DNA from: Auxenochlorella pyrenoidosa
Taxonomy: Eukaryota; Chlorophyta; Trebouxiophyceae; Chlorellales; Chlorellaceae
DNA length: 45,206 bases
Reading direction: 5' to 3'
Assembly (NCBI GenBank): GCA_001430745.1
Contig: KQ482061.1
Location: 991,114-1,036,319 of the forward strand
Program-made: the position numbers and the translations under genes
Part shown: one piece after another, positions 44,582-45,206 of the stretch
Position numbering within the stretch: position 1 is the stretch's first letter
Layout: every line of letters starts with the position of its first letter
Notes under the pieces: generated by a model
What the model was told of the DNA's origin: nothing
Seen by the model: only the letters and a program-made list of their open reading frames with translations
Databases searched by the model: none

Positions 44582-44585
44582 AAAA
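44582..44585 (-). terminator. Pol III T-run terminator of the permuted tRNA gene
   Basis: TTTT on the minus strand starts 7 bases after the end of the 5' half, where Pol III would stop after transcribing both permuted halves. Confidence 0.7.
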
Positions 44586-44591
44586 GGTGTT

Positions 44592-44670
44592 CTGCAGTCG
44601 ACCGCTCTACCACTGAGCTATAAGTCCAGAGCCAAGGACCCACCCGGGATCGAACCAGGGACCTGTCGAT
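44592..44670 (-). tRNA. Circularly permuted tRNA-Cys(GCA) gene
   Basis: On the minus strand the 3' half comes first (44670 down to 44635), then a 7-base spacer (44634-44628), then the 5' half (44627 down to 44592). Joined as 5' half plus 3' half, the 72 bases fold as a standard tRNA. The acceptor stem GGACTTA/TGGGTCC has 7 pairs, two of them G-U. The D arm is GCTC-AGTGGTA-GAGC. The anticodon stem GTCGA/TCGAC carries loop CTGCAGA with anticodon GCA. The variable loop is AGGTC and the T arm CCTGG-TTCGATC-CCGGG. The discriminator is T73, the cysteine identity base. Flanking GAAC and GTTC pair into a 4-bp helix at the two cut sites, like a splicing-endonuclease substrate. The B box therefore precedes the A box. 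A TTTT Pol III terminator follows at 44582-44585. Confidence 0.93.
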
Positions 44671-44717
44671 GAACTGTATGTATCGGCGGATGATGCCGCT
44701 GATGTCATGAGCACCGG

Positions 44718-44735: not shown

Positions 44736-44770
44736 GGAACCACGTTTTTCGACGTGTTAAAAAATTGAGG

Positions 44771-45206
44771 ATGCACCTTGACCGCCCCTGCCTCTGCGGC
44801 GCCAGCTCTGCCCGCCCCGACCGCCATCACCACTTCTGGGCCTGCCCTGTGGCCCAGGCCGTCATCACCGACATCCACGCAGCCATGAGCGTCGCCGCTG
44901 CTCCCTCCCCTCGCCCTCCCGCCCTCACCTGCCCCGCCATCTGGCTGGCCTGCACCCCGCCGGGCCTCCACCCCGGTGTCTGGGGGGTCGTCTGCTTGGC
45001 GGCAGCGGAGGCCATGGACTGCGGCCGCCGCAGCCTAGCGGCAGCTCAGCTGCGGCAGGAGCGGCTGGCGGCCGCAGCCGCCACCTCGACACAACCTCGC
45101 TACTCCCAGCTCACCCTCGACGCCTTCCTTCGCCAGCCCGTCCCCGACGGCAGCCCGGGCGGGTCTGATGCCCCGCCCCCCCCACCGGAGGTGCCGACGC
45201 CGGCGG
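44771..45206 (+). mobile_element. LINE-like retrotransposon ORF, 3' part with reverse-transcriptase-linked zinc motif (partial)
   Basis: An open frame from the ATG at 44771 runs off the right edge (145 codons visible). It opens with MHLDRPCLCGASSARPDRHH, followed directly by HFWACPVAQAV. This C-x-C...H-H-x-x-x-C arrangement is typical of the zinc-binding region after the reverse transcriptase in plant and algal non-LTR elements (zf-RVT). Then come Ala/Arg-rich helices, YSQLTLDAFLRQPVP, which resembles a PCNA-interacting QxxLxxF box, and a proline-rich stretch. The polymerase domain is absent upstream, where tRNA sequence begins, so this is a 5'-truncated copy or a domesticated fragment. Confidence 0.6.

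Follow-up and report, generated by a model that had tools for sequence, protein, structure and literature searches.

The nearest described counterparts of the gene reported here are the permuted tRNA-Cys(GCA) genes of the prasinophytes Ostreococcus lucimarinus, O. tauri and Micromonas pusilla, all with the junction at 37/38 (Maruyama 2010, as tabulated in PMC3978253). In that tabulation they are nuclear, of type II and free of any further intron, and the present gene shares these features together with the isoacceptor; its host, however, is a Chlorella-like alga and not a prasinophyte, and the spacer between its halves measures 7 nt, as against 26 nt in O. lucimarinus, 38 nt in O. tauri and 12 nt in M. 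pusilla (PMC3978253). The same source notes that AT-rich sequence precedes some permuted genes of green algae.

The permuted genes of Cyanidioschyzon merolae (Soma 2007), as presented in PMC3978253, resemble the present locus in having a TATA-like element upstream, a T-stretch downstream, behind the 5′ half, and no encoded CCA. Their spacers of 7-74 nt include ones as short as here, and the TATA-like element lies no more than 50 bp upstream in most of them, compared with 48-65 nt at the present locus. A circular intermediate has been detected in this alga (PMC3978253). Unlike here, several junction positions are in use and, in that account, Cys is not among the permuted isotypes (PMC3978253).

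The permuted arrangement is also known from trebouxiophytes. In Auxenochlorella UTEX 250-A, permuted tRNA genes were reported in 2025 after tRNAscan-SE had returned an incomplete tRNA set (PMC12636532; preprint PMC12633428), so that the host group, the reversed halves and the failure of a first tRNA scan are all shared with the present case. A point of difference is that the best named matches of the mitochondrial uS3 protein are here to Micractinium and Chlorella. A preliminary description of this DNA, made from its letters alone, had held that a trebouxiophyte case would extend the known range; with the Auxenochlorella report in print this is no longer so, the reading as a first trebouxiophyte example is rejected (PMC12636532), and the tRNA-Cys(GCA) gene is an added case of a known arrangement. 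In the open-licence literature, the Auxenochlorella work was the only account of permuted tRNA genes found for Chlorella or trebouxiophytes.

Layout and structure of the tRNA-Cys locus

The window, that is, the whole stretch of DNA analysed (45,206 nt, G+C 66.9%), corresponds to C57:991114-1036319 in an assembly of 51.6 Mb and 65 contigs. In all likelihood, the minus strand of 44592-44670 carries a nuclear tRNA-Cys(GCA) gene that is functional and circularly permuted; it is of type II, with its junction at 37/38 in the anticodon loop. The 3′ half precedes the 5′ half, each is 36 nt long (72 nt together), and 7 nt lie between them (Table 1). The junction is ambiguous by one base, an A being assignable to either half. 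The spacer has neither an encoded CCA nor a T-run, and CCA is not encoded at the locus, as in eukaryotic genes. Order of the halves, spacer length, U73, GAAC/GTTC and T-run are all as the preliminary description gave them; its coordinates were exact too, although it left the minus strand unmentioned.

Table 1. Positions of the permuted tRNA genes, their parts and flanking elements (window numbering unless a locus or contig is given)
Feature	Position	Strand	Remark
TATA-like element, 18-nt A/T-only run AATATATATTTATAAAAA	44718..44735	-	48-65 nt upstream of 3′ half
Leader GTTC	44671..44674	-	can pair with GAAC across the junction
3′ half of tRNA-Cys	44635..44670	-	nt 38 = 44670 (A38)
Anticodon-stem 3′ strand	44669-44665	-	
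Variable loop	44664-44660	-	
T arm	44659-44643	-	
Acceptor 3′ strand	44642-44636	-	
Discriminator U73	44635	-	
Intervening sequence TGGCTCT (7 nt)	44628..44634	-	closes acceptor stem into hairpin
5′ half of tRNA-Cys	44592..44627	-	
Acceptor 5′ strand	44627-44621	-	
U8 A9	44620-44619	-	
D arm	44618-44604	-	
nt 26	44603	-	
Anticodon-stem 5′ strand	44602-44598	-	
Loop nt 32-37	44597-44592	-	anticodon GCA = 44595-44593; G37 last
GAAC (G37 + three trailer bases)	44589..44592	-	partner of leader GTTC
TTTT, RNA polymerase III type terminator	44582..44585	-	7-10 nt past nt 37
Permuted tRNA-Ile(UAU)	L123:144-225 = L269:3643-3724 = C60:1848693-1848774	-	near end of contig C60

Joined in tRNA order, the halves give a 72-mer that ARAGORN names tRNA-Cys(gca). 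With G-U counted, all pairs are present in the acceptor (7/7), D (4/4), anticodon (5/5) and T (5/5) stems, and U33, R37, U73, the D-loop GG and the T-loop TTC are kept. The ARAGORN call and the pair counts thus agree on a complete cloverleaf with consensus bases, as had been claimed for the stems and for the D-loop and T-loop positions. The loop CTGCAGA and the arms seem to resemble those of plant tRNA-Cys. The RNAfold minimum of the reordered 72-mer has the acceptor stem and the D arm, but another fold between them and not a cloverleaf; minimum-energy folding backs the tRNA-Cys shape only in part.

Neither ARAGORN nor Rfam at gathering cut-offs reports a tRNA in the window as written, and the expectation that standard finders would miss the gene proved right. 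A pattern in which a B box is followed after 18 to 48 nt by an A box matches the window only at this locus (two overlapping matches), the mean over 100 dinucleotide shuffles of the window being 0.00. BLAST of the reordered tRNA-Cys over the 51.6 Mb returned the two halves of the locus only, and no contiguous copy was found in the assembly by this search.

A covariance model, R2, was built from class-I tRNAs of the assembly, 6 of them nuclear and 10 encoded on contig C51, after these 16 sequences had been rearranged on paper to a 37/38 permutation; its training set holds no Cys of any kind and includes one mitochondrial Ile, and in the alignment used (A2) the Glu sequence is off by one column. 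R2 scores 67.8 bits (rough E 1.6e-20) at 44592-44670 and finds no second match in the 45,206-nt window up to E 10. Another model, R1, gives 67.2 bits there; since the tRNA-Cys locus is itself in the R1 training set, this value is not counted as evidence, and R2 serves as the blind test. Over 108 other loci of the assembly (60 + 48), the best R2 score was 57.3 bits at L123, the tRNA-Ile gene discussed below, and the next, 22.0 bits, fell on a normal-order Arg gene (L093). The L123 gene was also the single hit when 22 loci (87,166 nt) were scanned; 17 of these belong to the 48, and of the remaining five, two consist entirely of N. In 26 of the phage loci R2 picks up apparent tandem tRNAs and YrlA-like RNA with scores of up to 64.6 bits, and by itself it cannot separate a permuted gene from either. 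Tandem tRNAs at the Cys locus were rejected, because ARAGORN on the L001 stretch (984 of 3,111 bases read N) and R2 revealed no further tRNA piece adjoining the halves. Taken with genome BLAST, the ARAGORN call and the flanking signals, the blind R2 score upholds the original identification of a permuted tRNA-Cys(GCA) gene in a Chlorella-like alga.

Flanking signals and the junction helix

The TATA-like element is the longest A/T-only stretch in the window, where only one other such run reaches 10 nt (44757-44766); both lie upstream of the 3′ half, at a distance of 48 to 96 nt. On the downstream side, 10 of the 12 normal nuclear tRNA genes (all but Ser and SeC) have a TTTT no further than 15 nt from the 3′ end, compared with 173 of 17,730 background windows; a TTTT also stands behind both permuted genes, starting 7 nt past G37 in Cys and 2 nt past G37 in Ile. 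At the permuted Ile gene the T-stretch is present and no clear TATA element was seen upstream. The SeC gene, at L042:138-225 on contig C15, is a candidate normal-order tRNA-SeC(UCA) lacking TTTT within those 15 nt.

On the plus strand, an open frame (44777-45205) starts 107 nt upstream of the tRNA-Cys gene. By eye it resembles the zinc-finger region at the C-terminus of LINE reverse transcriptases (LCGA...HHHFWACPVAQAV); it has no Pfam match and four unnamed homologs, and is possibly a retroelement inserted upstream of the tRNA gene.

The 4-bp GAAC/GTTC helix, which the preliminary description regarded as the feature needed by tRNA splicing endonuclease, can indeed form at the cut sites, but as an endonuclease signal it is possible and weak: a Watson-Crick helix of equal length arises in 11.7% of 5,000 flank shuffles, and its use as strong evidence is rejected on that ground. 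In short Cys precursors GTTC/GAAC folds outside the anticodon stem, and with a leader of 15 or 20 nt the helix is lost from the minimum-energy fold; CUG (nt 32-34) can alternatively pair with a leader CAG. Under the eukaryotic splice rule, nt 32 pairs with the third-last intron base, with a 3-nt bulge. At the Cys junction nt 32 is unpaired with the third-last leader base and three pairs form in the register one base on, so that the helix departs from a strict bulge-helix-bulge. The Ile junction follows the nt 32 rule with four pairs, which 4.1% of shuffles reach. The junction motif is compatible with a permuted gene and is no proof of one.

The splicing endonuclease family PF01974 occurs twice in the assembly, once in a Sen34-like frame (best chain 6z9u, E 2.5e-7) and once in a Sen2-like frame (best chain 8iss, E 9e-8). 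By these similarities, the host encodes two catalytic tRNA splicing endonuclease subunits.

A second permuted gene

The L123 locus, which entered neither training set, scores 44.4 bits with R1 in addition to its 57.3 bits with R2. Reordered, it is named tRNA-Ile(tat) by ARAGORN, with the junction again at 37/38, 7/7 acceptor pairs, 5/5 anticodon-stem pairs, a D stem of three pairs and a 6-nt spacer, CAATTA. The T arm appears in none of the minimum-energy folds of the Ile precursor at four flank lengths. Ile is not among the isotypes in the 2014 table of 34 permuted genes (PMC3978253).

A repeat (query L015:1281-1409; matches of 32 to 129 nt) lies upstream of 7 of the 13 nuclear tRNA loci, on the strand of the tRNA gene and with the closest copy ending some 70-116 nt before it; these are the permuted Ile gene (L269), L005, L023, L028, L034, L093 and the query locus L015 itself. 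Lys, Pro and Glu have several copies, and at Glu one of them is downstream. No match was found in 142,296 nt of other nuclear DNA, the window included, and the Cys locus is without it. The repeat has the look of a tRNA-gene-targeting element, or of an RNA polymerase III upstream element that these genes share. Its being common to the permuted Ile gene and to several normal tRNA genes gives a hint, independent of structure, that the cell treats the Ile locus as a tRNA gene.

Alternative interpretations

The locus might be a permuted pseudogene, the inner halves of a decayed tandem duplication now out of use. Tandem duplication followed by loss of the outer halves is in fact one of the proposed origins of permuted genes (PMC3978253), yet decay has left no trace in the pairing: none of the 21 pairs is broken, G-U counted, and the checked bases are kept. 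The A/T-run and the TTTT are likewise in place, BLAST found no contiguous copy, and the genome holds a second intact permuted gene, which together make disuse very unlikely. Even less credit is due to an assembly artefact, in which a tandem pair or a rearranged read was joined in the wrong order. The examined stretches of the assembly are rich in N, which would favour such an error, but spacer, upstream A/T-run and downstream TTTT all suit the permuted order, and a second permuted gene of another isotype speaks against it as well.

Bacterial YrlA RNA (RF02553), a non-coding Y RNA that binds the Ro60 protein and is not a tRNA, shares with the present locus a T arm, an acceptor-like hairpin and a D arm in permuted order, and it is the best sub-threshold Rfam match of both algal loci (31.2 bits for Cys, 26.0 for Ile). 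The YrlA model also scores 32.1 to 43.4 bits on six phage loci that show this order and have 6-7 acceptor pairs. The Cys score is far below the gathering score of 69, which the Ile locus does not reach either; this score decides little, because the six phage loci fall below it as well and a pair of normal tRNAs at L224 also gives a YrlA match, at 30.5 bits. The anticodon arm is therefore relied upon. It is exact at the Cys locus (5/5 pairs, U33, R37, and GCA with U73), and the combination of 7/7 acceptor pairs, 5/5 anticodon-stem pairs, U33 and R37 is found at both algal loci and at none of the six phage loci. On this basis a YrlA identity for the Cys locus is rejected, the chance that it is a Y RNA being very slim.

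The phage examples come from viral contigs, in which the inverted order was found in at least 120 stretches. Among the 80 listed there are 84 matches, eight of them with 6 or 7 acceptor pairs; two of the eight adjoin normal tRNAs by ARAGORN, and the six that do not all coincide with YrlA matches. These six IMG/VR loci are L151, L156, L166, L182, L199 and L224, and L166 also has a GOLLD RNA. The permuted-Cys pattern was found in none of the viral contigs, and BLAST of the Cys locus against phages gave no match.

Proposed maturation

The tRNA-Cys gene is real and very likely functional; its mechanism can be proposed by analogy with the described systems. RNA polymerase III, positioned by the upstream TATA-like element, would synthesise a transcript consisting of leader, 3′ half, 7-nt spacer and 5′ half, and would stop at TTTT. 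The transcript would then fold as a tRNA-like body in which the spacer closes the acceptor stem and the ends meet at the anticodon loop. A Sen2/Sen34 endonuclease may remove leader and trailer at 37/38, after which ligation of the ends would give a circle; the spacer would be taken out by RNase P and RNase Z, and CCA would be added. We infer that the gene is transcribed, that its RNA folds in the cell, is cleaved and circularised, and that the resulting tRNA-Cys is charged. Maturation through a circular RNA is plausible by analogy with the algal genes surveyed in PMC3978253.

tRNA complement of the assembly and implications

Of 239 RF00005 candidates 63 were scored, which gave at least 37 matches; contig C51 accounts for 27 of these, and the other 10 are nuclear. 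T-arm patterns were found at 32 places (GGTTCGANTCC), 63 places (GGTTCRANCCC) and 26 places (GGTTCAANTCC), and a wider one, GGTTCRANNCC, at 245 places, 100 of them listed. The 86 still-unexplained places of the first three patterns were examined, and by ARAGORN they include SeC(tca), Gln(ctg) and Arg(tcg, intron). A T-arm pattern for iMet/Ala occurs at 15 places, none of them a tRNA by ARAGORN, and D-arm patterns occur at 7 and 5 places, the nuclear ones being the known Lys gene and three not called tRNA. A single DNA query of ten plant tRNAs found no match in the assembly and is uninformative, as it had no positive control. The nuclear tally stands at 12 normal-order genes and two permuted ones, to which come a doubtful gene (L035) and one interrupted by N (L051); L033 is counted as Leu by our own reading, while ARAGORN says Ala.

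No normal-order nuclear tRNA-Cys was seen among the scored RF00005 candidates, the T- and D-arm patterns or the BLAST matches. The patterns presume a usual T or D arm, and 18% of the bases in the assembly stretches examined (46,103 of 252,326) are N, so a normal-order Cys gene could be hidden in them. Of the tRNA-Cys listing that had been proposed as a check, this incomplete census gives the permuted gene in the nucleus; the only Cys(GCA) among the loci run through ARAGORN lies on C51.

It is tempting to speculate, although we regard this as rather improbable, that permutation is common among the nuclear tRNA genes here and includes isotypes beyond the 2014 table (Ile-UAU), that most of the unfound nuclear tRNA genes are disrupted, as are many in C. 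merolae, and that the permuted state of Cys is old and common to this alga and the prasinophytes. The two genes add a Chlorella-like lineage, with named isoacceptors, to the few known to have permuted tRNA genes. As the same Cys isoacceptor is permuted in prasinophytes, it can be tested whether permuted tRNA-Cys goes back to the green algal ancestor or has evolved more than once. The results also hint that normal finders see the nuclear set poorly and carry a warning that standard finders undercount tRNAs in such genomes.

The identification of the host as a Chlorella-like trebouxiophyte, as proposed, is based on one protein, the uS3 of C51. Its best named match is Micractinium pusillum (66% identity), M. 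singularis and the Chlorella clade come next, and three unnamed proteins have higher scores. It is encoded in an AT-rich stretch with organellar tRNAs. The contig spans 362 kb, with at least 27 tRNA matches at 18-67 kb, N at 70-79 kb and a G+C of 0.67 at 235-244 kb, and is either chimeric or the site of a large mitochondrial insertion. Elsewhere, L131:215-252 (C47 near 416151) holds a Met(CAU)-like 5′ half, GCCTGCT..GCTCAGTTAATTAGAGC..CTCATAC, with no D-loop GG and no recognisable 3′ half in the stretch inspected, which is perhaps a decayed tRNA of organellar or bacterial type.
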